33,820 bases of DNA from positions 1-33,820 of IMG/VR virus record IMGVR_UViG_3300023297_000049; one strand, written 5' to 3'. This document shows, piece by piece, positions 1 to 31,900 of this stretch (its first letter is position 1; each line of letters starts with the position of its first letter). The notes under the pieces were generated by a model that was given only the letters and a program-made list of their open reading frames with translations, was not told the DNA's origin and made no database searches. A program made the position numbers and the translations under genes. The stretch comes from a virus.

Positions 1-2192
1 CCCACCACATTATATCCAAACACGCTATACACATTCGACGCGAACCTTGGATCTGAAGAATTGTTGTCATCATTCCCATCGTCATAAGGATCAACAGAAT
101 TAAGGATATTAAGAACCATGGTATTCGAGTTTTCAGTAGTAGGGTTGGCTATATTATCAAAGTCAATCCGCTTCCAGCCATACGCCGTAGGATTCATAGA
201 AATAGAATTAACATTTAACGAGTCAAACGTTACCTCGGCTCCTTCATCGACTTCCTGATCCATACCTCCAACATAACCCCATTGTGCAGCGTCTATTGTG
301 GTGGCCCCAATTAGTTCAAGCTGGTTTACCTCGGCAGCCGACAAAGCACTTAATCCTATTGTTGTGTACAAATTATCATGCTCGCTTTTAATTGTATTAA
401 GTTCGGTGCCAGTAACGGTCGTGTCAAGAGAAGAAAGCGCATCCCCTGGCTGGGTTGCGGTATCAGCATCAGCAAGGCTTGTCCCTATAGCAGCAACCAA
501 ATCTCCAACATCGATACTGTTCGCATCTATCGTGGCACTAATCGCTTGACCCGTAACAACAATATCTATGTCCCCGGCAGTTGTCCCGGTCGCAGCTACA
601 TGATCGTTATCTACCGAAAGCAAGCCCTCACCAATACCCCCGTCAGTGTAAGTCAACCCCGTTCCCGCCATACTTCCAACAAAGTCCTCCACCTCCTCTT
701 CTGTAAGGTTTGTGTCTGTAGCCTTTAACGAGTTAGCTACAATCTCATCCCATTTGCCTGCACCCAAAAGCCCAGCGGAATCTGTATTTGCCTCTGGAAG
801 TATAATGTCATTTGCACTACCGTCTGAGGTGATTCCATATGTAGTTGCGCTTACTGTCCCAGCTTCGAGGGTAGTAGGTACGTTTGTTACTTTTGCCGTA
901 TTGGTTACTATCGCAGAAGCCTGCCCAGAAGTAATTCCTGTCTTTGCTGTATTGGTTACTATCGCCGAAGTTTGCCCAGAAGTTATTGTTGTCGGCTTAT
1001 TTAATATTAAAGCATCCCCAGTAGTGGCATCCCAGTTAGATTGAACATTTTGTTCTTGAGTAGTAACACCGACTTTAGCCGTGTTAGTTACTATCGCAGA
1101 AGCCTGCCCAGAAGTAATTCCTGTCTTTGCTGTATTGGCTGTGATTGCAGAAGCCTGTCCTGAAGTTATTGTTGTCGGCTTATTTAATATTAACGCATCG
1201 CCAGCAGTTTCGTTCCAGTCCGATTGAACGTTCTGCTCTTCGGTAGTAACGCCGACCTTTGCTGTGTTTGCGGTTACGACAAGATTGTTCTCAACCTCAG
1301 TATCAAAATCACTAATTGTGCTGGCGGCTTGAGTCCCAGTGTGGTTTGTCCTATCAAGAAGTGTGGCGTCAGAACTGTTCGCCGTCGCTCCGTCGGCTAC
1401 ATTTAAATCGCTTCTAGTTTCACTATAAGAACGACCCTCTAAAGTATCTGAATCTGTAAACCTGGCGTAATCATATTGAACTGGAGTTCCAGAAACATCT
1501 AAAGTGCCTGTGCTCGGAGCCCCCCATGCAATATCGGTCCCATCGCTAGTAAGAACCTGCCCGGTAGTTCCGGCGCCAAGTCTTGCAGTTGTTCCAGCGC
1601 TGGTCTTATAAATCAAATCTCCCCTTGTTGTCATTGGATCAGGAAAACCGCTCACCTTTGCAGTGTTAAACCCAACAGCTGTAACGAGAGCATTAAGGTC
1701 AACAGCCCCAACAATCGTTATCAGTCCGAGCTTAGACTGTTCAGCTGAAGTGTACGGCACTGCTACGGTTATTGAGTTTGCAGTATCGTTGTAAGTAAGC
1801 GTTCCATCGAGAAGCATGGCGCCGACAATATCTTGAATAGCCTCATCACTGGCACCACCTGTAACATCCCCGACATAAAGAAAAGAACCGTCGGTTAGCC
1901 AAGCATCAAACTCCGCTTTCGTATCAATCGTGCTGCTAATAAAATCAGCTACCGCAGATTGAGCCGCGGTACCGAGCGCCTGAGTCGTAACGCTAGACCC
2001 GCTAATCAAAAGGTATTCACCGTCCACAGCGGTCCAGCTATCCGGAAAGTCTAAAAGGTCAGTTGACTTTGCGTCCGCTGCATTTCCGATATAATCACCA
2101 TTGGTGTTTGCAGCCCTGGCCGTTGTGCAAAAAATAACCAACATCGTTAAAACAACTAAAACATATGCCCAAAAAAATTTATTTTGAATCAC
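1..2192 (-). CDS. Tail-fibre-like protein with N-terminal signal peptide (partial, C-terminus beyond window)
   Basis: An open leftward frame starts at a GTG at 2192 and runs about 730 codons off the left edge. The start is set by GGAGGAG six bases upstream, and the GTG overlaps the TAG of the preceding gene by one base. Residues 1-27 look like a Sec signal peptide: MIQNK, a hydrophobic run FFWAYVLVVLTMLVIFC, then TTARA before Ala-Asn. The rest is Ala/Thr/Gly/Asp-rich and low in Cys, with tail-fibre phrases such as GDLIYKTSAGTTARLGAG, GQVLTSDGT and NTAKVGVTT, and two near-identical 61-aa repeats around residues 311-433. This composition is typical of phage tail fibres and appendages that bind the host surface. 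The signal peptide is odd for a virion protein assembled in the cytoplasm. No chaperone domain or receptor-binding tip is visible because the C-terminus is missing. Function is inferred from composition and position in the structural operon. Confidence 0.75.
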   Translation of the reverse strand, partial: MIQNKFFWAYVLVVLTMLVIFCTTARAANTNGDYIGNAADAKSTDLLDFPDSWTAVDGEYLLISGSSVTTQALGTAAQSAVADFISSTIDTKAEFDAWLTDGSFLYVGDVTGGASDEAIQDIVGAMLLDGTLTYNDTANSITVAVPYTSAEQSKLGLITIVGAVDLNALVTAVGFNTAKVSGFPDPMTTRGDLIYKTSAGTTARLGAGTTGQVLTSDGTDIAWGAPSTGTLDVSGTPVQYDYARFTDSDTLEGRSYSETRSDLNVADGATANSSDATLLDRTNHTGTQAASTISDFDTEVENNLVVTANTAKVGVTTEEQNVQSDWNETAGDALILNKPTTITSGQASAITANTAKTGITSGQASAIVTNTAKVGVTTQEQNVQSNWDATTGDALILNKPTTITSGQTSAIVTNTAKTGITSGQASAIVTNTAKVTNVPTTLEAGTVSATTYGITSDGSANDIILPEANTDSAGLLGAGKWDEIVANSLKATDTNLTEEEVEDFVGSMAGTGLTYTDGGIGEGLLSVDNDHVAATGTTAGDIDIVVTGQAISATIDANSIDVGDLVAAIGTSLADADTATQPGDALSSLDTTVTGTELNTIKSEHDNLYTTIGLSALSAAEVNQLELIGATTIDAAQWGYVGGMDQEVDEGAEVTFDSLNVNSISMNPTAYGWKRIDFDNIANPTTENSNTMVLNILNSVDPYDDGNDDNNSSDPRFASNVYSVFGYNVV
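895..1260 (-). repeat. Two tandem 183-bp in-frame repeats in the tail-fibre gene
   Basis: Units at 895-1077 and 1078-1260 are 183 bp (61 codons) each and nearly identical; the start of a third follows at 1261. Each encodes NTAKVGVTT, EQNVQS, GDALILNKPTTITSGQ and NTAKTGITSGQASAI. The length keeps the reading frame. Such repeats usually form the repetitive shaft of a trimeric fibre and let its length change by recombination. Confidence 0.85.
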
Positions 2193-2653
2193 TATGATCT
2201 CCTCCAACTTCCTACCATGTTAAGTAGTATCCATCTTTTTATTGAAAAAACAGGCTGAAGAGTTACAGACACATAAACCTGATCCGTATCGTTATAAATG
2301 CTTCCACCCTCAACGCCAAAGCCAACATAATCGCTTGCGTCGCCATCGATAATCAATTTCCCAGCGCCAAGTTTTGCCAGGGTAATCGGTGCTATCATGC
2401 CAGAGATTATTGCTGGCAGCGTAAAAGTCCTATCCTCGGTAGGATGAGTCATGCCAATTGTTTTACCCACACCAAGGTCCGCAGCCAAAACAGAGTAATC
2501 AATTTCTTTAATGCTAAAAGCCGAATCAGCCTGACCAGCAGTAACTGTGACAGGATACTCCCCAAACTCAAGAATAAGCTCAGAGGCTAAGGATGCACTT
2601 ATTAAGTCGATCTCTACCGTTTCCTGTAAAAAATCAAGATATATATCGCCCAT
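2192..2653 (-). CDS. Hypothetical phage structural-type protein, 153 aa
   Basis: The protein is not recognised. It starts MGDIYLDFLQ and is rich in Val, Ile, Gly and Asp with no membrane segment and no Cys. It probably folds as a beta-rich domain (for example PITLAKLGAGKLIIDGDASDYVGFGVEGG). Its start overlaps the TAA of the upstream gene by one base (TAATG at 2653), and its stop overlaps the GTG of the tail-fibre gene, so translation is probably coupled. Position between endolysin and tail fibre suggests a fibre-associated or baseplate part; that role is inference only. Confidence 0.7.
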   Translation of the reverse strand: MGDIYLDFLQETVEIDLISASLASELILEFGEYPVTVTAGQADSAFSIKEIDYSVLAADLGVGKTIGMTHPTEDRTFTLPAIISGMIAPITLAKLGAGKLIIDGDASDYVGFGVEGGSIYNDTDQVYVSVTLQPVFSIKRWILLNMVGSWRRS

Positions 2654-3084
2654 TATTCATCCACCTGAACAAGATCCTGGAGTTGTTTCCATGCAAAAGT
2701 TTCGCTGCTCATAATATTCCCAGCACTATCCTTGATTTGAAATTCAGCAAAATATTTTTCTCCGACTTCATTAACGGCAAAATCCATGTCTTCAGCAGAA
2801 CAGTTGGTATTTGACAACCCGTTTGCATAAGGAGCTGTATGCTCCGTAGGGCCGATCTCTTTAAGCAATAACGCACCATTCTGGGCCAAGATACTATTGT
2901 CCGGATCAGCTTCAACCGCCACATCAGGGTCTGCTTCTTGTATCTTAATCGTGAACCAGATCGTCGCACCTGTAATATTAATCGGCTCATATGTGATAGC
3001 GCCAGTATCCGGGTCAACGGTTTTTGTTCGTACCCTTATAATGCTATTGAAGGAATCGCCCTTTTTATGTGTGATAACGTTCAT
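2653..3084 (-). CDS. Hypothetical phage structural-type protein, 143 aa
   Basis: The protein starts MNVITHKKGDSF and reads like a small beta-sandwich domain. The phrases KGDSFNSIIRVRTKT, INITGATIWFTIKIQE and KYFAEFQIKDSAGNI resemble the N-terminal domains of phage baseplate-upper or fibre-attachment proteins, which pair a KGD..F start with an ITGAT.WFTIK strand. I cannot assign a family. It overlaps the end of the endolysin gene by four bases (ATGA type) and the next gene by one base, so it belongs to the same translationally coupled operon. Confidence 0.7.
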   Translation of the reverse strand: MNVITHKKGDSFNSIIRVRTKTVDPDTGAITYEPINITGATIWFTIKIQEADPDVAVEADPDNSILAQNGALLLKEIGPTEHTAPYANGLSNTNCSAEDMDFAVNEVGEKYFAEFQIKDSAGNIMSSETFAWKQLQDLVQVDE

Positions 3085-3833
3085 GCTTCTCCCCTTGGAT
3101 CGCCGACCAAATATTGGCCTGTAAAATTTTTATGAGCCGTGCTTGTCTTCTTGCCGGAAATTCCGTCCATTTTCAGTTCTGGATCCGGCTTAATATTTGC
3201 GTTTAAAAACATCTGATAAACAAGAACATCTTCATTCCTGGCCAAATAAGTCACAGGCCAAGGTTTTTGGGGGCCAGGAGCATAAATCCCCTTTTCCATA
3301 AGTTTATGTAAAATAACATAAGCACCTGCCTGCTTAGAGCGCAGGATCGGGCTGTATTCGCCATCTGAGCCATAAAGACCGAGATCGACACCCCATTGGC
3401 AGCCAGAGAACAAATAAGGGCTTAAAAGACCGTTGTTGCGATATCCGAAGCCATTGTGCCGTTCAAGATGATAACCCATCACCCCGACATCCCAATGATC
3501 GACGGTCACATAGTTTTGAAGGCCCTCAATTGCCGCAGTATGCCAGAACTTCCATGGGCCATGTCCTTTCGGCACGATTGTCGTCATCTCGTCAAGGCGC
3601 TGTCCGTTTAATATCTGCCGGTCGAAACTGCAGTCGCATTCCATTTCATGGATAAGCGCAGTAAAAACCCAGGGGATTCCAGTCTCTCCTTCGACGGCTT
3701 TATATTGGTTTATGCCAAAAATAATTCTCTCAACACAGATTTTCAGCTGATATTCAAAATCAGCAGAAGGAGTAATTCCATCAAAATACCTTTGATATTC
3801 ATTTGGAGTTAAGCAATAAAGTCTTTTTGTCAT
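3081..3833 (-). CDS. Endolysin, lysozyme-family with C-terminal peptidoglycan-binding-like segment
   Basis: The protein is 250 aa from MTKRLYCL. This start is preferred over one 25 codons upstream because GGAGAG lies just before it and its ATG overlaps the terminase stop as ATGA. Residues 55-180 match the COG5526-type lysozyme pattern: W.FTALIHEMECDCSF with Glu65 in the likely catalytic position, an NGQ/LDE stretch, GHGPW, and the signature ERHNGFGYRNNGLLSPYLF followed by a DGEYSP loop. The last 50 residues (LKMDGISGKKTSTAHKNF) look like a short peptidoglycan-binding motif. The predicted role is hydrolysis of host murein at lysis. No signal peptide is seen, so a holin would be needed; none is recognised in the window. 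Placement between terminase and tail genes is common in small-phage late operons. Confidence 0.75.
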   Translation of the reverse strand: MTKRLYCLTPNEYQRYFDGITPSADFEYQLKICVERIIFGINQYKAVEGETGIPWVFTALIHEMECDCSFDRQILNGQRLDEMTTIVPKGHGPWKFWHTAAIEGLQNYVTVDHWDVGVMGYHLERHNGFGYRNNGLLSPYLFSGCQWGVDLGLYGSDGEYSPILRSKQAGAYVILHKLMEKGIYAPGPQKPWPVTYLARNEDVLVYQMFLNANIKPDPELKMDGISGKKTSTAHKNFTGQYLVGDPRGEA

Positions 3834-5749
3834 GACCAACCCTCTCCAAGTTCTCCGGAATAAACAACTTCTGCGGCTTTTTTCTGAGCAATTCGCCATG
3901 CAAGACAACCTTCCGGGATTTCCGGAGCGCTAGATTCTTTAATTCGTTCTTTTTCTGATAACGCCAGACTTGCCAAGGCATCTGCAACAACTTCATCACC
4001 ATGAGCGGATTTTGCGCCAGATGGATCCTGAGAGTTCGCGGCCTTTGAATGTTCAACTAACCCACCCGGTTTAACAATGAATTGCAGGCATTCGATATAT
4101 GCCGGGGCAGACCTGTTAATAAACGTCTGAGAGCCCAAAGCATCCCGATAATTTTCAAACACATGCGTCCTGGCTTCCGGATTAAGAAAATAACCGGGTT
4201 CGTCAGTTACACGCTGGCCGACCTTCTTTTCCATCTTGCGGTAATAAATATTTCCATAACCTGTTGCCATGACTCTCATCGTAAAAGTTTTTCCAGTGGG
4301 CCCTGACGCATCCCAGATCATAAAAGCGTTATTAAAGAATTTTGCAAGGGCCATCGTATAATTAGCAAATCCGTTTGGTCTGACGTGAGGTGTCCTCAAA
4401 ACACCAATTTTTTCTCCGGTTGCGATATTAACAATCGATGACACGGAATTTGATGCACCAGTTCCAGCAGAAACATCTGACCCGATAGCAAATTTCATGT
4501 CATGAGGAATTTTCCCAGAAGAATTTAAAGGCAGCCAAAGAGAAATATCGCCATGAATGTTTTCAGTGAAGCGTTTCGGGATTTGTGTTTCTGGATCAAA
4601 TTCAAGATCCCCGATTAATATCGGTGGCCGTGCGTTCTTTTTCCGCAAAATGTCGATCGTCTCCGAATCGAAAAACTGATAATCAGAACCCAGAAAATCA
4701 ATGTCAAGTTCCTGTGCAATCTCCATTTCCGACACGCATCTTGAACATTCGTTGTCATACCATGGACTTCTGGTCTTTCCATCAAGGCGAAAAGGATAGT
4801 CTTCCGGAAATTTTACTTCCCGAGCTTCTTCCCCCTTTTTCCGAACAGTAACAACAGTACTATAACCGTCAAGGAGTTCTAGTTTCCCATCTTTGTCAGC
4901 CCGGTATAGACCTTTGTTATATTCCGGATGTGAGGTCCAGTGCAGTCGAATGTTTCTGGCTGATGAATTATGGCAAATTTCATAAAAGGCATTATTTGCG
5001 CCCTGAGGTGTAGAGTTAAATCCACGGCATTTCGTTGTGTCCCGGGTCGCTCTTAAAACTTTAAAGCCGTCATTTATATCGAAAGCTGCATGTTCGTCAA
5101 TGAACATCGCGGTCCGTCGATCGCCGCGGCCAGCGTCACCAGTCGTTGACTCACCGTCAATAACACTATCGTTATCAGCGTTCGCTAAATGAAGAAGTCT
5201 TCTCCCGGGATCTTTGTCCGCCATCCATCTTCCGGTCGGGAGTAACCATTTCGGCTGATATTTATGTAAAAAATCTATTTTCCAAAAAAGCGTTTTTGGG
5301 TTTCCGGACTCATCAACATATTTCTCGTTTCTCGATATAAGTAAAAAACTCAAATCTTTCTTAAAATGCCAAAACCACTCAAAAACCGTCAGACCCATCC
5401 ATGATGCACCCATAGTCCTCGATTTCGGCACAACAAAATCCTCACCGGATTGAATACAATCGGCCATGGATAACATCGCTTCGTCTTGAAAGTCATAAGT
5501 AATAAAAGGAAGTACAGGAGTTTTATGGCGAGGATCATACGTCCAGCAGAAAGTATTGATATAAAACATCAAATCATCAGCGCACATCTGCTTAACCGCG
5601 GCTGCTTTAAAAGGATCGCTCCGGCAGATTGAAAGGACATTTTTCCGGAATGTTAAATTTGCAGCCATACTTTTCGGAACCATGCCGTAATGTGGGCAAG
5701 ACATCGATCCCAAAACAGTTAAAACCGCCACTAAAAACCATTTCCGCAT
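3830..5749 (-). CDS. terL: Terminase large subunit (DNA packaging ATPase-nuclease)
   Basis: This 639-aa protein has both terminase domains. ATPase: a deviant Walker A VPKSRTMGASW at 107-117, Walker B TAMFIDEH with Asp218/Glu219, and a coupling segment GFNSTPQG near 243. RNase H-like nuclease: FAIGSDVSAGTG with Asp425, IWDASGPTG with Asp480, and HGDEVVADALA with Asp585/Asp590. It would cut concatemeric DNA and pump it into the procapsid through the portal. The chosen ATG at 5749 has GAGG ten bases upstream and overlaps the preceding gene by 19 bases. Its first 22 residues (MRKWFLVAVLTVLGSMSC) are unusually hydrophobic for a terminase, so an internal start at Met17 or Met28 is possible. The ATP-binding and nuclease residues are present, so the gene looks intact. 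Confidence 0.93.
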   Translation of the reverse strand: MRKWFLVAVLTVLGSMSCPHYGMVPKSMAANLTFRKNVLSICRSDPFKAAAVKQMCADDLMFYINTFCWTYDPRHKTPVLPFITYDFQDEAMLSMADCIQSGEDFVVPKSRTMGASWMGLTVFEWFWHFKKDLSFLLISRNEKYVDESGNPKTLFWKIDFLHKYQPKWLLPTGRWMADKDPGRRLLHLANADNDSVIDGESTTGDAGRGDRRTAMFIDEHAAFDINDGFKVLRATRDTTKCRGFNSTPQGANNAFYEICHNSSARNIRLHWTSHPEYNKGLYRADKDGKLELLDGYSTVVTVRKKGEEAREVKFPEDYPFRLDGKTRSPWYDNECSRCVSEMEIAQELDIDFLGSDYQFFDSETIDILRKKNARPPILIGDLEFDPETQIPKRFTENIHGDISLWLPLNSSGKIPHDMKFAIGSDVSAGTGASNSVSSIVNIATGEKIGVLRTPHVRPNGFANYTMALAKFFNNAFMIWDASGPTGKTFTMRVMATGYGNIYYRKMEKKVGQRVTDEPGYFLNPEARTHVFENYRDALGSQTFINRSAPAYIECLQFIVKPGGLVEHSKAANSQDPSGAKSAHGDEVVADALASLALSEKERIKESSAPEIPEGCLAWRIAQKKAAEVVYSGELGEGWS

Positions 5750-12048: not shown

Positions 12049-12494
12049 TGGAATATGACTGGAAATACGGCTCAAGAATCTCCGGTAATGCGAGTGTTGT
12101 TGGCGGTCAGATTGAATCTATACGTCAAAAAAAGGGCGGTTTTGTTGGTGCTAGAGACGTTTTGCAGAGTGCAAAGAGAAAAACATCTCCCCTGCACGAA
12201 TATTTTGAATGGGACGATGGTTTGGCTGCTGATGAATATCGGTTAGTTCAGGCAAGAGAATTGCTGCGAGCTATTGTTATTGTCAGGGAAGATGTTACTG
12301 TTCGAGGATTTGTAAACGTCCAAATTGAAGACGATCTAACTTATACCAGTATTGACTTTGCTTTGTCAGATGCGGAGTTGAGGTTACAAGTTATAAATAA
12401 AGCAAAAAAAGAAATGATATCATGGCATCAAAGGTATAAAGATTTAGTAGAGTTTAATCCCATTCATGAAGCTATTGCGAGGTTTGCAGACTAG
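12048..12494 (+). CDS. Conserved phage protein with SPLHEYFEWDD motif, 148 aa
   Basis: The ATG overlaps the previous TAA (TAATG), with AAGGA seven bases upstream. The central GGFVGARDVLQSAKRKTSPL, followed by HEYFEWDDGLAADEYRLVQA and RELLRAIVIV, is a pattern seen in many phage proteins of unknown function. The C-terminal half is helical and contains KKEMISWHQRYKDLVEF. The TAG stop at 12492-12494 lies at the first bases of the G-rich pentamer tract, so the tract abuts the gene without intruding into it. Confidence 0.7.
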   Translation: MEYDWKYGSRISGNASVVGGQIESIRQKKGGFVGARDVLQSAKRKTSPLHEYFEWDDGLAADEYRLVQARELLRAIVIVREDVTVRGFVNVQIEDDLTYTSIDFALSDAELRLQVINKAKKEMISWHQRYKDLVEFNPIHEAIARFAD

Positions 12495-12807
12495 GCAGGC
12501 GTGGACTGGCGGGGCGGGGCATGGTCAGGCCCGGCGCGGAATGGCTTGGCAGGCATGGCCAGGCGCGGTGAGGCAAGGCGAGGTGAGTGGGGCGAGGCAT
12601 GGCAGGCGTGGTCAGGTCTGGTTTGGCATCGCTGGGCGAGGCGAGGTATGGCGGGGCAGGCTGGGCGCGGCAAGGTTCGGCGGGGAGAGGCAAGGCGTGG
12701 CAGGGCAGGGCAGGTTAGGCGTGGCGAGGCAGGGCAGGGCACGGCAGGCTAGGCGTGGCGAGGTTTGGCTTTGCAAGGTCAGGCATGGCAGGGCGAGGCA
12801 GGCAGGG
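12493..12807 (+). repeat. G-rich pentamer tract (GGNNN)n with GGCA resets every ten units
   Basis: GG occurs every five bases for 315 bp with few breaks; the commonest units are GGCGA, GGCAG, GGCGT and GGCAT. The register is shortened by a GGCA tetramer at 12494, 12548, 12601, 12655, 12709, 12743 and 12797. Between these resets lie ten pentamers in four intervals (12498, 12605, 12659, 12747), a ten-unit interval with one base missing (12552), and a six-pentamer interval (12713). The complete unit is thus 54 nt. The three variable bases differ between units, so they are not simple recent copies. It lies between a phage gene and the ribosome site of the serine recombinase. The strand is very G-rich and could form two-layer G-quadruplexes or R-loops. 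All long frames through it are Gly/Arg/Ala/Trp/Gln low-complexity and have no ribosome site. Confidence 0.9.
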
Positions 12808-12833
12808 AAATCTATAACGAAAGGAGGAACAAA

Positions 12834-13535
12834 GTGACTAATGCAATTATTTACGCGAGGTTTTCTCCGCGCAGAAACGCTGAAACTTCAGACTCAAACG
12901 AGATCCAGAAGGCATATTGTGAACAGCATGCTCATGACAAAAAATACACTGTGGCCGGTTTTCATGAGGACAAGGCCCTTTCCGGATCCGACGCAGATCG
13001 TCCGGCTTTGTGGGCCGCCCTGGAGCAATTAGAAAAGGGCTCCGTCTTGCTGGTTTATAAGCTCGACAGACTGGCCAGAAACGTCTATCTGATGGAATTA
13101 ATAAAGCAGGCAGTGAAAACCTGCGGCGCAAGGATTGAAGCCGTTGAGGGCGATGTTGAAGGCGATACGGCTGAATCTGTGCTGATTAGACAGATACTTT
13201 CTAGTATATCGGAGTATGAACGCAAGATCATAGCCTTAAGGACTAAATTTGCAATGCAGCAACATCAGCGAAACGGAAAGAGAATGGGTAGGTTTCCGCC
13301 TTATGGTTTCCAGATCGATCCGGAAGACAATACCATGCTCATCCCGGTTGAACTAGAGCAAAAGGCAATCGTCCGGATCTGGGCGATGAAGGCCGAAGGA
13401 TATGAGACTATGCAGATTGCCAGAAAGATGAACCATGAGAAGTTGCATAAGACCCGGAACGGAAATCGCTGGGCCAGAAAACAAATTGATAAAATCTTAA
13501 GTAATCACAAACAAATAAAAGGAGACAGTAAATGA
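12834..13535 (+). CDS. Short serine recombinase (resolvase/invertase family)
   Basis: The 233-aa product starts at GTG 12834, chosen because AAGGAGG lies six bases upstream; a longer in-frame start would lie inside the G-rich tract. The resolvase fold is clear: NAIIYARFSPRR with Arg9 and nucleophile Ser11, the DKALSGSDADRPAL segment, VYKLDRLARN with Arg79 and Arg82, and the helix QILSSISEYERKIIALRTKF. It is followed by a recombinase DNA-binding segment (RMGRFPPYGFQIDPED to NGNRWARKQIDKIL, residues 150-222). It lacks the long zinc-ribbon/coiled-coil end of large serine integrases, which are usually over 450 aa. It may therefore resolve dimers, invert DNA or act on a local site rather than integrate. 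It overlaps the next gene by four bases (ATGA). Confidence 0.85.
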   Translation: MTNAIIYARFSPRRNAETSDSNEIQKAYCEQHAHDKKYTVAGFHEDKALSGSDADRPALWAALEQLEKGSVLLVYKLDRLARNVYLMELIKQAVKTCGARIEAVEGDVEGDTAESVLIRQILSSISEYERKIIALRTKFAMQQHQRNGKRMGRFPPYGFQIDPEDNTMLIPVELEQKAIVRIWAMKAEGYETMQIARKMNHEKLHKTRNGNRWARKQIDKILSNHKQIKGDSK

Positions 13536-20124: not shown

Positions 20125-20490
20125 TTAGTTTAATATTGGGTTTCGTTCTTGCCTAAAAAATATAATTGTTTCATTGTCTTTAATCTCAACTAGTTGATAA
20201 TACGGGTAGAATCCATAGTAATCATCCATTGGCTGCACCTGATATTTGTCGTTTTTCAGTCCACCTATAAGATATCGACAATCGTCTCCGGTCTGAACAT
20301 AAAGAGAAATTTCTTCAAACTGGCTACATTTTTTTTCCTTTATTTCTACCTGAATGCCAGTGCAGTTACCTCCAGTAATAGTCCCGGTAATAGTCCCGGT
20401 CTGTGCTCCAGAGTTCTTTGCAACAAAGATTAGAGGGGTCAGGCATCCAATCGTAAAAAATATTACTATTGTCCATACTTTTTTGCTCAT
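20125..20490 (-). CDS. Putative exported protein with carboxypeptidase-regulatory-like beta domain, 121 aa
   Basis: The start at 20490 (MSKKVWTIVIFFTIGCL) is preferred over one eight codons upstream because GGAGG lies six bases before it. Residues 1-30 are a signal peptide or anchor, ending near KNSGAQ. The remainder (GTITGTITGGNCTGIQVEIK to CRYLIGGLKNDKYQVQPMD) follows the G-x-V/I-x-G...Y-x-V-x-P pattern of CarboxypepD_reg/Ig-like beta-sandwich domains, ending VEIKDNETIIFFRQE. The Cys in CTG, KKC and DDC may form a disulfide outside the cytoplasm. The role is unknown; it may act at the host envelope. Confidence 0.6.
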   Translation of the reverse strand: MSKKVWTIVIFFTIGCLTPLIFVAKNSGAQTGTITGTITGGNCTGIQVEIKEKKCSQFEEISLYVQTGDDCRYLIGGLKNDKYQVQPMDDYYGFYPYYQLVEIKDNETIIFFRQERNPILN

Positions 20491-20491
20491 T

Positions 20492-21082
20492 TTAAACCTC
20501 CACTGGCCGTTCATGTGACAAGCACCCTTTAAGTAACTTTAATTGTCTGTCTGTGGAGAAGTCTGCAGGGATATATTCATTAGAAGGCAGTTCTTCGCTT
20601 AACAGTTCCATCCGCTGATATCCTTCTGCAGTTAGCTCTGAGCAAAAAATGCTGGTCAGGTCTTCGGTGTTCATACCACCCCAGCCGTCATACATCGCTT
20701 TAAGAAGCTCAATAGTGTCCTTCTCATACGGCAGGCCAACAACTTCGTTTCTGAAGTTTTTTAGAGCCATACGCATCCCGTAGGTTCTCTCAACTTCCAA
20801 GTGCCGGATTGCAACTTCTCCATTATAGCGTCTGATCCGCTCTCTTAATGGCCCTACCTGGACACCCCTTGTCTCAAGGCCAGACTCAATGTCAGCGACG
20901 TTACTCATAATAGTTGATTCAAAAATCAGTTTCATGTCGTACTCTGGGAGGCTCATAGCTATCCCAACATGCGACCATTTACTACCGGAACGCTTCCGGA
21001 TCTGCTCACTAAAGAATCCTTTTCCAGAGAACAGCACGATATCTCCTGTTTGAATATCCTTTCTCATTAGATGGTACTTCAC
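20492..21082 (-). CDS. YiiX-like permuted papain-fold (NlpC/P60 clan) cysteine hydrolase
   Basis: The product is 196 aa from GTG 21082, with AAGGAGG seven bases upstream; the GTG overlaps the previous TGA. DIQTGDIVLFSGKGFFSEQI, then GSKWSHVGIAM with His38, then IFEST with Glu55, and later SIFCSELTAEGYQ with Cys147, is the order seen in YiiX/YaeF-like permuted NlpC/P60 enzymes (His first, Cys late). Such enzymes cut amide or peptide bonds, sometimes in peptidoglycan or lipids. There is no signal peptide. The Asp/Glu-rich middle is typical. In phages such genes may modify the host envelope or serve at lysis; here the role is inference. Confidence 0.75.
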   Translation of the reverse strand: MKYHLMRKDIQTGDIVLFSGKGFFSEQIRKRSGSKWSHVGIAMSLPEYDMKLIFESTIMSNVADIESGLETRGVQVGPLRERIRRYNGEVAIRHLEVERTYGMRMALKNFRNEVVGLPYEKDTIELLKAMYDGWGGMNTEDLTSIFCSELTAEGYQRMELLSEELPSNEYIPADFSTDRQLKLLKGCLSHERPVEV

Positions 21083-23795: not shown

Positions 23796-25598
23796 TTATT
23801 TAACTACCTTAGTCAATGCTTTCATAAATTCATTCCAGTCAAGAGGCAGTTCATATGGCAATCGGCCATAAGGGCCACGACCACCACCCGGATGAGCTGG
23901 TCTTTTCTGGGTGAACAGAAATCGGGATCCACCAGTTACGTCAATACCGCGTTTCTTTTCCTGTCCAAACCCTTTGTCTTCTTTCTGCACCTTAACTTTA
24001 GTGTTGCAAAACAGAATTACATCTGCCCAACGAAAAAGCATATTTACGGCTTTCTCGTTAATGTCAAGAATGTACTGATCGTAGCTGTCACCGGATGGAT
24101 CGTCAAAGCGTTTAACCTTAACATGTCCGATAATAATACTGGACATCCCTTTGTGGCTTCTCAGGGCGTCCAACCCTTCTGTGATCTGTCTCCAATAGTT
24201 CACTGATTCGGTGTATCCTTTGCCATACCCACCGCCAACGGCCTCAATATTCTTTACGTTTGCAGCGTCGCAAACAGCGTTCCAGACAAGAGGCTCCATC
24301 GCGCTTGCGCTGTCTAAAACTACGGTTCTGTGCTCATGTTCTTCGGAGTAAAGGGATCCAAGTGCTTCGATAATATCTTCAAATTTATTGCAAACTGGAA
24401 ACTTTGGGATTTCCAAGTCGTCTGCTCCCTCTTCACCTTTCATCGATAATAGGATAGGAGCGTTCAAGCCGGTCTTGAATATTTTATTGTCCTTAAATTG
24501 CGTTCCGCAGGAAAAGGTCGTGTTGTGTGTTACGACCAAATCTCGTCCCGCTAGATAGGTGTGAGAGGGTGAATCGACGGATATACATTTAACAGGGACG
24601 GACTTTACAGGTGTAACGGAGACGATAGCATCTTTATTGGCTTTCCTTCTGGAGTTTTTTGTTTTAAAGCAGTTAAACTTAAACTTTGAAAACCTAAAAG
24701 GATTTTCTTTCGGGAAAAATGCTACACGAAAATTGGGCCCACAATCTTTGCCATTAAGTTTTGCACGACATCTTGTAATAGATGCTTTGACCCCGAGAGA
24801 TCGAAGCAGTTCGATAAATCCGTCACAGAGACACTCTTTGACCGTTGAGAATTCACACTGGCCTTTGTTGTTGTCGTAGCAACATCCGTCAGTATCCATG
24901 AGCCCAGCCAGCAAGCTTCTCCTGTCTTCTTCGGTACTTTCCCAAACTGAAGCATGGGGGATGTGCTTATTGCCTAGCAGGTTTCTGTTTCTTAGTTTTA
25001 CTTTAAGACCTAAGATCGTAGAAGTCTTGCAGCCAGCAGTTTGGTATGGTTTACCAGTTGATCCCAAATTATTTCCAATTAGAGCGTCCCTGTCTGATAT
25101 TGTTACTCGACCATCGCTAGAACTTCCATCTCCGAGCCAAACTCCCAAAACATATGGGTCAATGCCTATTACTGAAGTCTTCTTTATCTTGAGCGGGAGC
25201 GTGATTGGGACTGCATGATTGTAACGATCTCCGTTGGGAGGTCTAAGGGTCTTAAGGATTTGGCCTGTAGTCAACACTCGTTCTTTATTGTCCCGTATCG
25301 ACCTTGTGAGCCATTGATGCTCTTTATCGGCTATCAATGAGGCCCCGCTCTTAAACTTCACTTCATAGCAGGTTCGTTTTTCCATGATACCCGTCACATC
25401 GGTAACGCGTACCATGCTGCCGTCTCTATCAAAGACATAATCCCCTCTTTTAATAAATTTCAGTGGTTGCCATCCCCTGTTTGTAAAAATTGGGGTATTG
25501 TAGTCGAGAGCCTTCCCGATCTTTTCAACACCTAGAACCAGGATCCTTGGTGCTCTTAAAATTGTTTCTTTTTTAATACTGTTAAGGTCAAACGTCAT
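23796..25598 (-). CDS. Sak4-like RecA-fold ATPase (AAA_24) interrupted by a class 3 intein
   Basis: The product is 600 aa. The host protein is residues 1-29 plus 360-600 (270 aa after splicing). Joined, it reads LVLGVEKIGK|TTFSCG, a perfect Walker A. It continues with a RecA-like core: TVVLDSASAMEPLVW (Walker B), GGGYGKGYTESVNYW, SSIIIGHVKVKRFDDPSGD, NMLFRWADVILF and TQKRPAHPGGGRGPYGRLP. This fits AAA_24 (PF13479) phage nucleotide-binding proteins of the Sak4 group, Rad51-like ATPases that anneal single-stranded DNA with an SSB. Without splicing the P-loop is broken, so ATPase activity should depend on intein removal. The gene lies with DUF669, Gp157 and Cas4-like genes. The ATG has AAGGAG nine bases upstream and overlaps the previous frame by 11 bases. 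Confidence 0.85.
   Translation of the reverse strand: MTFDLNSIKKETILRAPRILVLGVEKIGKALDYNTPIFTNRGWQPLKFIKRGDYVFDRDGSMVRVTDVTGIMEKRTCYEVKFKSGASLIADKEHQWLTRSIRDNKERVLTTGQILKTLRPPNGDRYNHAVPITLPLKIKKTSVIGIDPYVLGVWLGDGSSSDGRVTISDRDALIGNNLGSTGKPYQTAGCKTSTILGLKVKLRNRNLLGNKHIPHASVWESTEEDRRSLLAGLMDTDGCCYDNNKGQCEFSTVKECLCDGFIELLRSLGVKASITRCRAKLNGKDCGPNFRVAFFPKENPFRFSKFKFNCFKTKNSRRKANKDAIVSVTPVKSVPVKCISVDSPSHTYLAGRDLVVTHNTTFSCGTQFKDNKIFKTGLNAPILLSMKGEEGADDLEIPKFPVCNKFEDIIEALGSLYSEEHEHRTVVLDSASAMEPLVWNAVCDAANVKNIEAVGGGYGKGYTESVNYWRQITEGLDALRSHKGMSSIIIGHVKVKRFDDPSGDSYDQYILDINEKAVNMLFRWADVILFCNTKVKVQKEDKGFGQEKKRGIDVTGGSRFLFTQKRPAHPGGGRGPYGRLPYELPLDWNEFMKALTKVVK
24522..25511 (-). mobile_element. Class 3 intein with LAGLIDADG homing endonuclease, 330 aa
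   Basis: The intein is residues 30-359 of the ATPase, inserted between Gly-Lys and Thr of the Walker A motif. It begins with Ala (ALDYNTPIFTNRGWQPL) rather than Cys/Ser. It has block B ADKEHQWLT with His65 and Trp67 (intein numbering), block F VPVKCISVD with Cys309 at F:4, block G DLVVTHN with Thr328, His329 and Asn330, and Thr at +1. The Trp/Cys/Thr set together with no position-1 nucleophile defines class 3 inteins, in which the block F Cys starts splicing. The endonuclease has both LAGLIDADG helices: YVLGVWLGDG (149-158 of the precursor) and LLAGLMDTDG (229-238). Both acidic residues are kept, so homing may be active. The frame is fully open. Confidence 0.92.
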
Positions 25599-25985: not shown

Positions 25986-28900
25986 TTATTTTTCATTAAA
26001 AATTTTATTTAGATGTCGCATTCTCTTCCAATAACTTTTAGTACCTACCTTCCTGCCTGATCGCCTACCGTCAAGAGTAAATATCCAGCGATTCCTGAAA
26101 GCAGCTGCAACAAATTTAAAATCATCCTCATACTGTGGGTTGTTATGAATCGCGTCAAGAAGCTCTTCTTTCCGAGCCGGTGTAATGTTTGGGTTTGTTA
26201 GCTGCCATGCAGCGTTCCGGATGATCTGGACATCGCCTTTTACCTGGTCGTCAACTTGTGCCTGAGTTAATTTCAGCTCATAATACATCGCAAGAGATGT
26301 CGGGTCCGGATCAATTTCGTTTTTACGTTTCTTTATCAGCTGGTCCCATGCCTGTGCTCTTTCTTCTTTGCTGGAGATAGAAAACACATTAACAGCCTCA
26401 TCGAACGATAGCCTTTTAAACGATGCTTTAAACGGAGACATTTTGGCCGTGGCTTTGATGTTTTTCTGCTGTCTGGCCGTAAATCCCTCGTAATCCTCTG
26501 CAGGGATTATTTTTCCTTTCCGGATACTGTTAATTATCTTCCTGCGACGATCTGACTTTTCAGCGTCTGCGTGAGATATGTTGGTCTGCCCCCCACGATC
26601 TCGGTTAAAACCTATCATCATTTTTTGAGCTGGGGATCTTGTAATATAAGCCGGAGCCGGCGATATTCCGGACGCTCCTATGATCCATGAGACGGACGTT
26701 TTCTCTCCGTTCTCATGTAGCTTCATACCGTTTCTAACAGAAAATGGCATGAACATGTTTTCAACAAAATAAAGCGATCCTTGCGCTAGTCTGGTTAAAG
26801 GATCACCTTCTTTGATCTGCCGCCCAAAATAATCTTCATTAGTGAGGAGGTCAACTGCAGTACCCCACAAGGGGTTCAGTTTATGTGTGAGCGTCTTCCA
26901 TGGCTGTGTCATCCACGCCACTATGTCTTTAGAATAATGTGGGTTAGAAAGCCGCTCAGGGCTTCCGTCGGTATTCTTGCGGCCAGTTTTTGGAAAGTAA
27001 AGGTCCTTTGGTTCTTCTGGCGGTTCTCCAGTAAAAAGATATTGAAGCAACGCGCCCTGAATGGCGTAAGAGATCCCAGCTCCGAAGGCATAACCCATTC
27101 TGCGAGTGACAACATCCTGATCGTTGCCAATCCTTCTCCAGAACGTCGCAGCGTCCACTGCTCCGCCTCCAAACTCCCTTATCGATCCCAACGTCCAACC
27201 AGGAGCACGAAAGGCCAGCATAACGATCTCCTTGACCGTCCTGTTCCAGTTCAGGTTATCATACCGGAGTTGACCCATCCTGTTATCAACATTATCCCAT
27301 GCACTGGCAAGTTCTGACTGTATCCGGATATCGTCCCAATCCTTTTTATTGGCCTGTTCATAGACATCGGAAGCCATATGGTAAAAGATCCCTAATTTAA
27401 GGCGCGGTACCTCCATCTGCATGATCGGAATAGAAAGTCCTTCGATCAGAGCCATGGAAGCATGAATCGGTGCTGCCATCGCACCCTTAACTTTGCCAGA
27501 AGCATCTTTGCTAAATTTAACATCTCTCAGGGCCTTAAGTAAATTGCTCCCGGCATTATTCCTGTATGCTGCATCCATGGTCGCACTACCACCGCCATCA
27601 ATTACGGCCTGAACAATTTTTCTCATAAAAGGATCTTCAATCTCGCTAAGTTCCTGCCCCATGGCCTTCATTACTTTGTCGCCGGTAAGATAATCTGAAA
27701 CCGGAGCTTTCCATGATTTCTTCACCCATTCGTCGATTGCACCACTAACATCTCCCCTTGAGAGTTTCTGCAGGCCAAGACCAATGTGCGTATTTATACT
27801 GTCTGATGCCACATTAATTCCGTGAAACGCGCTTAAGCCGTGACTTGCCATCAGGGTAACATTCCGCAATTTGCGAAGGCCGTCATAGATGTTTCTGGTG
27901 ATGAGACTTGGGCTCGAGCCAAGGCCCGGGGAAAGATGTCTGTTAAGAATTGTTGCGGCTTCTTTAGGTACGGCCCACTTCCCAATTTCAAGAACTCCCG
28001 GTTGAGTATGTGTTGACGATCGGGTCCCGAGAACTACCGATCTGTCAAGATTCAGCAGTGGTTTTACAATATCGTTATCATTTAAGAAGGTTTTCCATGC
28101 TGCAGTAATCTTCGGGGCAACCTTTGCCATTTTCTCCGGAGCTGCGAGCCATGCCTCTAAGATTACAGCTTCCTTCTCTTCTTTTTTACGGCGGTATCTT
28201 TCTCTTGTTTTTCCAAGATCGCCCAGGGTTTCGTCTCTGAGATCAGCCAGTGCCTGAAATTCTTTCCGGATCGCAGCACGATTGGCCGTCTGCTCAAATT
28301 TTATAGGCTGACCTTCACGTTTGCCCTTTTCATGCACACGACCAATGGTGTGATCGCCGTGCAACATGTAATTAAACAAATCGTACTGATTCCCGATCTG
28401 ATGGCCTATTTCATGAGCCAGTACAGATGTTGGTCCTGCGAATCGAGTCTCTATTTTGTTTTGACCGGGATATGATAAACCCCATACTTGACCGCGCATT
28501 TTCGACATGCGTTCATGAGAAACACCCATTCTAGTCGCTACGCCCATCAGCTGATCTACGAGAAGTTTATCATATGCTTCCGGAAGGGTCAGCTCAGGTG
28601 TAACCTTGACCTCCATATCTGGATCATCAATAAACTCCCATCCGGCCTTTTTATAATTCTTCTCTAATGAAGACGGAACGAATACAGCCATGCCCAGCTC
28701 TTTAAAATCCTGTTTGATCCTCTTGCCGGCAACGAAACGATTCATCTCATGAAGTCTTAAAATTGTCATCTCAACCGGATTGTAATGGGCCAACTCAAGG
28801 CCAGCATCAAGGCCGTCTTTTAACGTGAGATATTTTCTTTTATGAAGGAAGCCTTTCGGGACCAGTCTTCTTTTAGACAGTAATCCGGAAATCACGTCAG

Positions 28901-31900
28901 AGGCATGTTCTGGTCTTTTAAATAAGTGAGGGAAATAATTTTCAATATAATCTTCTAGTGCACCAAACTCCTGAACCCTTTTACGGCCCTTGTCCAACAT
29001 TTCACGCAGGAGTGCTGCAGCGTCATCCAGTTCTGTTGTTACTTGAGGACGCGCACCTTTTGGATCCTCCATCTTGTCAATAAAATCAACGATGTCCTCC
29101 GGAGCCATCCAGTGAAACTGTTTGCCCGTCTCATGAAGCTTGGCCCGTGTCATCTCGTCAAGCTGAGCGGCTTCTGCGGTTCTTTTTCTTTTAACTAATG
29201 CCGCGACTTTTCCAATAACCCCACGTTTATGAGGCATAAGGATCTCCATTACATTGTCGGCAACTTCCCCTGCAGTCATTTTTGCCTGGGCAACTTTAGT
29301 CAGGATCTCGTTTGAAGGTTCATTCTGGGAATAACTGTCATCATCTGAAACTGCGACGTTTGCGTTTCCGGAGGATCCACCGCCTTTTTTCTTCTTGTCG
29401 TCGGGCAGGTCAGTCTGCTTACCCTGTTTCTTTTTCCTTACTTCGTCAAACTCGAAATCTTCGCCTTTTGCGTCTTTCTTGGCCTGTTCCAAATCTGCTG
29501 CAGCGTCGCCATCAGTTTCGGTCTTAAACATTTTAGGCTGAACAGGCTTTGCCTTCTTTTTCTTACCCTTGTTTTTTTCTTTTTGCTGTTCGAGAATAAG
29601 AGGCTCTTTGGTGATATCTTCTCCGGCCTCTATTTTTTTATTTAGAGCGTCCTGCCCTTCCTGTAAGCTTTTGTCGAGATCCTCAATGGTAGGTTTTTTC
29701 TTTTCCTTGGAAAGAATATCTGCAGTCTTTACCAACATGTGTCCGATGTGCTCATGTTCTGTGTTGTTGCCAGTCTTCGGGTCCTCCATTGACCAGCGGC
29801 CATCTTCTTTCTTGGTCCCCCTAAACCTGTCATTGATGTGGAGCCCTCTTCCGCCCATAACCTGTCTGATGTCAAGATCGTCAAACATGGCAATCTTTTC
29901 TAGCTCAGTTTCTGTCAGATTAGGCTCTTTTTTTTCGTCCTTAAGCTCATAGTCTTCCCGTTTTTTGTCCGGAGCTACTTCTTCACCCGCAGGCTTTTTA
30001 ACAGCTTCTTGCTTAAGTTTATCAATCTCCCGCGCTTTTTTAGCAGATTCAGCTTGCAAGAATTCCTCTTCGAAGTTGTCTTCTTTGCCCTGCTCAACCT
30101 CTTTTTCTATTTCAGCTTTCCGTTTGTCTTCACCCTCAAATGGTTTCTGCTCTTTTCTGTTGTCAATTTTTTCGTGATGTTTAAGCCTCTTGAGCTGTCG
30201 TTCTTTTATTGCCAGTTGTGTCTTTAAGTCCCTTTCTTTTTCTTGCTGTCCAGCGAACCATTTTATAGTTTCGTCGGCGGCTTGATCTGCCTCTTCTTTG
30301 GAAAGCCCAGCTTCGATGCTATCTCGGAGAACTTCTTCCCGTATGCTTTCTTCCTGAGATCTCTCAGCTTTGCTAATTGCTGTTCGTTCAATGCCTTCAT
30401 CTGTTAGCTCCTTACTAATATAATTTTCATACTCCTGTTGTTGAATATCGGCCTCATCAGATGCCTTCTGTGCGATGTCTCCAATTGCAGAGACTTCTGT
30501 TCCGGAATAAGATTCCTCCATTTTCTTAAAAAAGTCATCGATGTCAGCTTTTCCATGCTCATCTGTCTTGATATATCCTGCTTCGGCCAGAGATTCTGCC
30601 ATATGGTCAATACTCATTCCACCTTTTTTCCGGAGAACAGGTCTTCCAACCATTTTGGTGTTAATTCGTTTATCTTTTGACATGTCAGAGATTATGGATC
30701 CCCATTGTCCATGAACATCATCAAAGTCTAAACCGCCGACCTTTGAAATGTGCTGCAGCATAGTGTCGGGTTTCTTAACCTTTAAGCCTTTACTTTTAAT
30801 TTTGGATCCGATTTTGTTTCCCGGATCCTCTTTCTGCCTTTTTTCAATTGCAGAGATCAATTCAGTTTTTTTCATGTTAGTTTTAAGGCCAAGCCCTTTG
30901 GCCAGTGCTCTAATTTCTTTAAATGGTTTCGCCTGCAGGTCAGAGTTTGGTAATACTTTGTCAAGCTGATCTTCCAGATCTGCCGGTTTTTTGTCTTGCA
31001 CGGCTTCTTGCACGCCCTGTGGAAGTTGCGTCTCATCACCGGCAGGTTTTATCTTTTCCTGCACTTCAGCTACAGTTTTATCCTCTTCCTTCGCTTGCAC
31101 TTCAGGTGTAATTTTCTCACTCCCACCAACTCCCACCTCCTCTGTCGTGGGAGTAGTTTCTTCCTCTTCTGACGCCTCAGAAACCAACCCTCTCGCATTG
31201 TCAGCAAAAGCCGATCGATCTTCTTTAGACATCTCCGGGAGACCGTATTTTGCAAAAACCTTCCGGGATGGTTTTTCTTCACGGGCCAACTCTATTGCTT
31301 CCCCTGGGTTTTCTGAAACCCATGTCGCTGTCCCAAGCTCGGTCTTTAACACTTCTTTCTCAATTTCACGGCCTAAAGCGATTTCTGTGTCCTCTTTTGA
31401 CTTAGAGGCGCGATGGAGCATGTTTTTCGTAGTTTCTTTGTCAAGGCCATATGTGTTTGCAAGGGAATCAGTGAAAGCATCACGTTCTTTTAGGTTTTTT
31501 TGACCTTTCCATCCTTGATACGTCCCGGTACCACCAACAGCAAGGAAGGTCTGCATTATCGTGTCAATAGCCGTGTCCCAAAGTGCCTTTGGTTCCAAGG
31601 CGTTCGGGTCAATATCGCTTATTTTCCTATTTGCGCTATGAAGCCCTTCTGTGATTAACTCTTCCGGGGCCTCACGCCCAAGACTTTTCCCGATGTCCTT
31701 CATTACCTGCTTAAAGCCTGCTCTTATGATTTGTTTTCCGCCGCCAAACATTGACTCGAAGCCGCCCCAGCCAAGTTTTTGAAATATGCTGGCAACGGCT
31801 CCCTCGATTACTGCAGCCCGACCGGCATAAAGTAAACGATCTGAACCTTCAAGACCTTTGTCTGTAGCAGTAGTTAAAGCATCATTTCCCTCAAAAAGAG

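Follow-up and report, generated by a model that had tools for sequence, protein, structure and literature searches.

The window examined here is the entire IMG/VR viral record IMGVR_UViG_3300023297_000049 (33,820 bases), and the gene in question is a fibre-like reading frame on its minus strand, which runs from a GTG start at position 2192 down to position 3 and begins with a predicted Sec signal peptide (Table 1). The frame is open at the contig end after 730 visible codons, so that the C-terminus is absent from the window and the protein has at least 730 amino acids (aa). The GTG codon, read as methionine, shares one base with the TAG stop of the preceding gene, and GGAGG is placed 8 nucleotides (nt) ahead of it, which bears out the good ribosome site that an earlier sequence-only reading had claimed for this gene. 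The predicted N-terminus is MIQNKFFWAYVLVVLTMLVIFCTTARA, followed after the presumed cleavage point by ANTNGDY. An alternative in-frame TTG start upstream, at 2207, was rejected; it has no usable ribosome site, gives an acidic N-region and fails the signal-peptide rule described below. No better start was found, and translation is predicted to begin at the leader. A near-identical contig (L002; 4569 of 4572 bases the same) has the identical leader and is a second contig of the same phage.

Repeats of the protein body are common to open reading frames (ORFs) at 63 IMG/VR loci, and three isolate records match it, two of them annotated as tail protein or minor tail protein and one as hypothetical. 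Searches of the window fibre against Pfam and PHROG returned no family at E 0.1. The N-terminal 173 residues, compared with viral contigs, matched only the same phage, and the last 100 visible residues, searched with a wrong first letter in an attempt to recover the missing 3′ end, found no relative. An AlphaFold prediction for the 730-aa fragment, made with no alignment, was unusable (mean predicted local distance difference test score, pLDDT, 36.8).

The signal peptide was assessed with a self-written strict rule calibrated on stretches of E. coli K-12, with class labels assigned from gene names; in that strain 28 of 36 exported proteins pass it, as do 2 of 35 that are membrane-embedded and 2 of 118 from the cytosol. 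The fibre protein passes it with the top cleavage score: K5 stands ahead of the core and gives a positive N-region, the hydrophobic core has a Kyte-Doolittle hydropathy of 3.3, and an AxA-type site follows, with ARA before and AN after the cut. Among 204 candidate starts of window ORFs of at least 70 aa only three pass, one belonging to the fibre gene and two to a single small lipoprotein-like ORF (20125-20514), and when the first 60 residues of the fibre were shuffled, 111 of 20,000 sequences passed. A chance hydrophobic N-terminus was judged unlikely in view of the shuffles and of the recurrence described below, although the terminase of the window shows that hydrophobicity alone misleads. 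A lipoprotein reading was rejected, because Cys22 is preceded by Phe and the lipobox test asks for Gly, Ala, Ser or Cys before the cysteine; the rule assigns the leader to the signal peptidase I (SPI) type. The Sec signal peptide proposed in the sequence-only reading was thus upheld, and these data suggest that the window protein very probably has a genuine Sec leader and is likely to be exported.

Leaders are uncommon among the fibres that share repeats with the window fibre. Of 54 such ORFs with a closed 5′ end, 50 have no signal peptide, and these leaderless fibres share the GDLIY.. and EQNVQS.. repeats; the four leadered ones are L002 itself, L060, L063 and L064, the last three of which match the window fibre via one repeat, NLTEEEVEDFVG. 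A scan with this repeat gave 71 loci; after exclusion of L002, 69 of 70 fibre ORFs were closed at the 5′ end, and a strict leader was found in 20 of these 69 ORFs sharing the EEVEDF repeat (19 SPI, one with a lipobox), three of the 20 (L113, L116 and L150) being identical with the contigs L060, L063 and L064. Other ORFs of the same loci served as the control, and 15 of 188 passed the strict rule, 11 of these coming from loci with a leadered fibre; in both repeat sets, and in the cassette counts given below, a leader at any start up to codon 60 could be counted, a bias towards positives that affects fibres and controls equally. The first 150 residues of the 20 leadered fibres are mostly unrelated to one another, and matches at E 1e-5 link only L115, L119, L161 and L169. 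Because so large a share is leadered and these N-terminal parts are so varied, the leaders appear to mark a sizeable fibre sub-class of varied origin. As judged by eye, the leadered fibres adjoin terminase, capsid or tail genes in different loci. Consecutive signal-peptide ORFs were also seen in the phage contigs L118 and L113, one of the L113 ORFs having a weak Laminin_G_3 match.

The leadered and leaderless fibres of the EEVEDF set differ in cysteine content as well, the leaderless ones having a mean of 0.19 cysteines per 100 aa and the leadered ones 0.71. Paired cysteines 8-18 residues apart were found in 8 of 20 leadered and 2 of 44 leaderless proteins (Fisher p 0.0008, with kinship and host uncontrolled and rows de-duplicated by length and cysteine count only). 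Two proteins whose leaders were recognized by eye but fail the rule (L137 and L172) were counted as leaderless, which works against the contrast. The enrichment is as would be expected for folding in an oxidising compartment.

Leadered proteins of this kind are also encoded by isolates. The Cellulophaga phages phi10:1, phi18:3, phi19:1, phi46:3, Nekkels and Ingeline are like the window in having a Sec leader on fibre- or spike-like proteins; they have several leadered proteins in tandem, including pectate-lyase proteins. In these phages and in the window alike the leadered fibre-like protein is encoded among structural genes, the structural neighbour in the window being the terminase. The hosts are different, and tandem mass spectrometry (MS/MS) records exist for the Cellulophaga phages, whereas the window protein is known from its sequence alone. 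These phages are absent from the isolate matches to the window protein, and no sequence kinship was seen.

Virion status was taken from record annotations stating MS/MS, four of which were seen only as far as 'part of structural virion'; a study by Holmfeldt and others from 2013 is said to lie behind these notes. The data showed that 4 of the 12 tested virion proteins of phi10:1 have leaders (gp091, gp093 and gp094 by the strict rule, gp092 by a looser one) and the remainder do not (0/8), while in phi18:3, also with 12 tested, gp086 and gp087 pass the strict rule, gp085 the looser one and the others neither (0/9). In phi19:1, with four tested, gp102 and gp103 are strict SPI cases and gp101 is a strict case with a lipobox. 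In the leadered virion proteins of these three phages the mature N-terminus is predicted to follow LNA, VSA or LSA. Left out of these counts were gp076 and gp077 of phi14:2 and gp98 of phi19:1, and phi10:1, phi13:1, phi18:3 and phi19:1 were covered in part; gp095 of phi10:1 and gp104 of phi19:1 are leadered by eye only. Because leadered Cellulophaga proteins are recorded as MS/MS virion proteins, a leader alone should not be taken to imply a non-virion role. The sequence-only reading had held that its leader sets the window protein apart from ordinary fibres, and this is borne out in so far as leaderless fibres are the rule, but it is unsupported in the form given, leadered fibre or lyase proteins being recorded in the virions of three phages. 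In the crAss-like phage phi14:2, gp002 (L189 283-1278) has an OmpA domain and, by the looser rule, a signal peptide.

The leader regions of the Cellulophaga proteins behave as modules. Residues 1-40 of phi10:1 gp094, which comprise the leader and about 20 further residues, are kept at 36-38 of 40 positions in five proteins from phages of the Assiduviridae, Pachyviridae and Duneviridae. Past this region three of these proteins are homologous to gp094, with 32-37% identity overall, while phi18:3 gp087 and Nekkels 55 have no match beyond about residue 70 in a gapped check. The gp094 leader region is thus far better kept than the remainder and, in two cases, is attached to another body. Conversely, one lyase body, 92-93% identical, follows a relative of the gp094 module in phi46:3 gp081, but phi10:1 gp093 and phi19:1 gp102 have it behind a different leader module, and a related body (48%) in phi17:2_18 has another N-terminus and no leader. 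Short conserved N-terminal modules on varying bodies have the look of the virion-attachment parts of fibres, and by this analogy the attachment-like modules of the Cellulophaga phages would include an export signal. A further isolate, Tenacibaculum phage Larrie (ON950054, L183:7536-9044), encodes a leadered (MKKILTILFAIVSISIFSQ) fibre-like hypothetical protein near structural genes, with YadA-head-like repeats by eye and a leader accepted by the looser rule only. Its host is Tenacibaculum and its body is unrelated to that of the window protein; its C-terminal domain is leaderless in the Flavobacterium and Shewanella phage proteins examined.

The lineage of the window phage was traced through its terminase. 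The search gave 38 IMG/VR loci and, in bacterial genomes, two relatives, in Cerasicoccus frondis, a member of Verrucomicrobiota, and in a Verrucomicrobia metagenome-assembled genome; because both lie in that phylum, the host probably belongs to Verrucomicrobiota. Terminase matches were found in 3 of 387 sampled Verrucomicrobiota genomes, including Cerasicoccus itself and one partial match, and in a sample of the order in 1 of 372, which is Cerasicoccus itself. Once the window, L103, L104 and L110 were added, the lineage set comprised 42 records. Terminase end and portal start are both visible in 33 of them, and in 26 of these the two genes overlap or lie at most 10 bases apart; three (L066, L077, L100) have small gaps, and four (L072, L073, L076, L081) have a cassette of about 2-6 kb between them. 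Six records (the window, L002, L074, L075, L103, L110) have other coding sequence after the terminase up to the contig end, and L065, L078 and L086 are uninformative on this arrangement. Six of nine distinct terminase-adjacent cassettes hold an ORF that is fibre-like by eye and passes the strict rule, namely those of the window and L002, L074, L075, L076 (with a lipobox), L081 and L103. The L072 cassette has only a small lipoprotein-like ORF and that of L073 none, while the L110 fibre ORF was excluded from the count because the site with which it passes the rule falls within the core. The leadered fibre is preceded by an 88-90-aa gene in L074, L081 and L103 and by a 153-aa gene in the window. 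In the Cerasicoccus frondis prophage terminase and portal are neighbours, with no cassette between them. A late gene of this prophage, taken for a tail protein gene, is present in 9 of 12 records searched.

Two further observations concern this lineage. In L216 (1397-2290, minus strand, counted from the end) a leadered 297-aa ORF comes right after a leaderless fibre-like gene, and it belongs to the relative with a terminase-portal gap of only 181 bases (L077). In L110 and L112 (G281:C1) the terminase region occurs twice on a single genome contig, the copies lying 50.9 kb from each other, which hints at a tandem prophage or a phage concatemer and at a genome of about 51 kb.

The genes upstream of the fibre gene are listed in Table 1. 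The phrog_1084-like gene lies two genes upstream, in a locus that adjoins the terminase, and PHROGs assigns its family no function. Its kin are found directly before a leadered ORF (L076), one gene before a fibre leadered by eye (L172), between leadered and leaderless ORFs (L182) and before a leaderless fibre (L087). A BppU-type adaptor was rejected for this gene (2653-3084), since Pfam BppU_N matched at E 0.11 with 12.6 bits against a cut-off of 23.1; the model of the 143-aa protein was weak (59.3) and matched unspecific beta folds in the PDB, all of them above E 0.001. An endolysin, guessed by eye for 3081-3908, was supported by neither Pfam, PHROGs nor PDB sequences. The signal-like N-terminus of the terminase (5662-5749, minus strand), odd for a packaging ATPase, is partly common to L066, L068, L070 and L073.

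Table 1. The fibre-like gene, its parts and the genes upstream of it in the window
Feature	Position	Strand	Basis or remark
Fibre-like protein gene	3..2192	-	at least 730 codons, GTG start, 3′ end beyond contig
Predicted Sec signal peptide, 27 residues, cleavage between ARA and AN	2112..2192	-	own rule calibrated on E. coli K-12
Shine-Dalgarno GGAGG, 8 nt before GTG	2201..2205	-	sequence
'EEVEDFVG..' fibre repeat, first copy (by eye), residues ~98-150	1743..1901	-	sequence
'GDLIYKTSAGTTARLGAGTTGQVLTSDGTDIAWG' fibre motif region, residues 178-228, also in leaderless fibres	1509..1661	-	repeat comparison
'EQNVQSDWN..GDALILNKPT' repeats, residues ~303-403, also in leaderless fibres	984..1286	-	repeat comparison
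'NLTEEEVEDFVGSM' fibre repeat, residues ~489-530; carriers often leadered (20/69)	603..728	-	repeat scan
153-aa protein, start-stop overlap with fibre gene; positionally like the 88-90-aa genes of leadered cassettes	2192..2653	-	no family above cut-off
143-aa phrog_1084-like protein	2653..3084	-	E 2.4e-4
Protein of unknown family, between terminase and fibre module	3081..3908	-	Pfam, PHROGs, PDB sequences
Terminase large subunit, anchor of neighbourhood comparison	3830..5749	-	family match

Elsewhere in the window, a serine recombinase with Resolvase and Recombinase domains (12765-13535, plus strand) suggests that the phage may be temperate, and GC-rich, highly repetitive coding sequence (GQARRGMAWQAWPG..) stands directly before it (12466-12837, plus strand). 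An AAA_24 gene (23796-25598, minus strand) is split by an insert that resembles an intein and contains a LAGLIDADG homing-endonuclease domain (Pfam Hom_end, LAGLIDADG_3). The small lipoprotein-like ORF (20125-20514, minus strand) overlaps a C92 permuted-papain amidase gene (20492-21082, minus strand; Pfam Peptidase_C92), and a giant protein of 2145 aa with a Rho_N domain is encoded at 25986-32423 on the minus strand.

The arguments for export are the leader and its recurrence, together with the cysteine pairs and the conserved leader modules, and those for virion membership are the MS/MS records; export first with docking at lysis would be the simplest way to reconcile the two. We tentatively read the window protein as a Sec-exported tail appendage that would fold in the periplasm and join virions at or after lysis, at a likelihood somewhat short of even, and the prospect that it ends on virions, judged by analogy with Cellulophaga, is likewise a little under even. 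On this reading, translation from the GTG would give a precursor with a Sec signal peptide, a step well supported by the sequence. SecYEG would then move the precursor across the inner membrane, signal peptidase I would cut after ARA, and the chain would fold in the periplasm and not in the cytoplasm. As the leadered virion proteins of Cellulophaga phages suggest, the appendage would dock on virions at or after lysis, once the particles come into contact with what the periplasm contains, perhaps via proteins encoded directly upstream. Kept out of the cytoplasm, such a binding or depolymerising protein could also work on the envelope of its own host ahead of release. More generally, and still more tentatively, some tailed phages might assemble tail parts outside the cytoplasm, with fibres and depolymerase spikes passing through Sec, maturing in the periplasm, some with disulfides, and docking at lysis; the window protein would then be an instance from a Verrucomicrobiota phage.

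Several observations weigh against docking of a leadered fibre on virions or against the signs of export. No leader was found among the tested virion proteins of phi13:1 (0/13) and phi14:2 (0/17), so that most virion proteins, fibres included, do without one, and what MS/MS detects may be periplasmic protein or vesicles that co-purify with the particles. In the lineage itself, the leader-giving starts of L075 and of the second L103 ORF have no recognisable ribosome site. A leaderless fibre-like ORF stands right after the Cerasicoccus-type late gene in five of six records examined, including the L081-cassette phage, in which the leadered fibre is an extra one; because relatives have a leaderless fibre-like gene elsewhere, the leadered gene may not be the virion fibre. 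The visible mature window protein has no cysteine in 703 residues, so that the argument from an oxidising compartment is not directly applicable to it, and the same holds for L074, L075, L076 and L081; the cysteine evidence backs the leadered class, not its member in the window. The terminase of the window, though surely cytosolic, has a hydrophobic N-terminus that passes the looser rule, while it fails the strict one and has no proper site.

In the main alternative, the exported protein would stay in the host envelope, outside the virion, and cover or occupy receptors or alter the adhesion of the infected cell; covering of receptors would amount to superinfection exclusion or would stop debris from trapping progeny. 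We regard this as possible but doubtful. The convincing Sec leader fits it, and so do the position of the leadered gene in a variable terminase-adjacent cassette, the leaderless fibre-like gene that the L081 relative has elsewhere, the small lipoprotein-like ORFs of the window and some relatives, and the chance that MS/MS picked up co-purified protein, but the MS/MS virion notes on leadered fibre or lyase proteins of three Cellulophaga phages speak against it, as do the absence of a lipobox and the phrog_1084-like gene, with kin near fibres, two genes upstream. Superinfection-exclusion lipoproteins of phages, such as Llp of T5, are small phage-coded exported envelope proteins with a lipobox. 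The window protein is likewise phage-coded with an export signal; unlike them it is long and repetitive, and with Phe before Cys22 it has no lipobox. A use of the hydrophobic N-terminus other than export, either to anchor or trimerise the fibre during cytoplasmic assembly or to hold assembly at the inner membrane, is improbable. Cytoplasmic assembly would be the simplest account of leadered proteins in Cellulophaga virions, and the terminase is a phage protein with a hydrophobic N-terminus that is not exported. Most fibres that share the repeats have, however, no such segment, the leadered group is richer in cysteine pairs, and the positive N-region and AxA site argue for a true leader, the rule accepting so few membrane-embedded proteins of E. 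coli (2/35). Even less is to be said for a surface or adhesin gene captured from bacteria (a moron), a fibre look-alike among late genes with no specific phage role, which is quite unlikely. The cassette lies beside the terminase and is absent in most resolved relatives, and companion leadered ORFs have weak matches, under curated cut-offs, to PKD (L103) and Laminin_G_3 (L113). In contrast, the repeats are common to phage fibres, the gene has a start-stop overlap with its upstream neighbour and a phrog_1084-like gene nearby, and by eye leadered fibres recur next to phage structural genes in many loci.

The usual view is that tail fibres are produced and assembled in the cytoplasm, and searches of the open-licence PubMed Central literature yielded no paper that describes exported tail fibres as a class. 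Bartlau and colleagues mention 'signaling peptides' on the lyase proteins of Ingeline and Nekkels (PMC8776804), and the passage concerned gives no mechanism for them; the leaders on these proteins were confirmed by sequence here. With this passage as the one printed mention found, leadered fibres seem to be a widespread, little-noticed group, and in annotation their genes could be mistaken for bacterial adhesins or auxiliary enzymes. Bacteroidota phages would provide cultivated models, and the cultivated Cellulophaga phages allow direct testing. If the export signals work and the class is still found on virions, there would be a second, extracytoplasmic route of tail assembly, which would explain the cysteine pairs of many leadered fibres, and phages could attack or mask the host envelope from inside before release.

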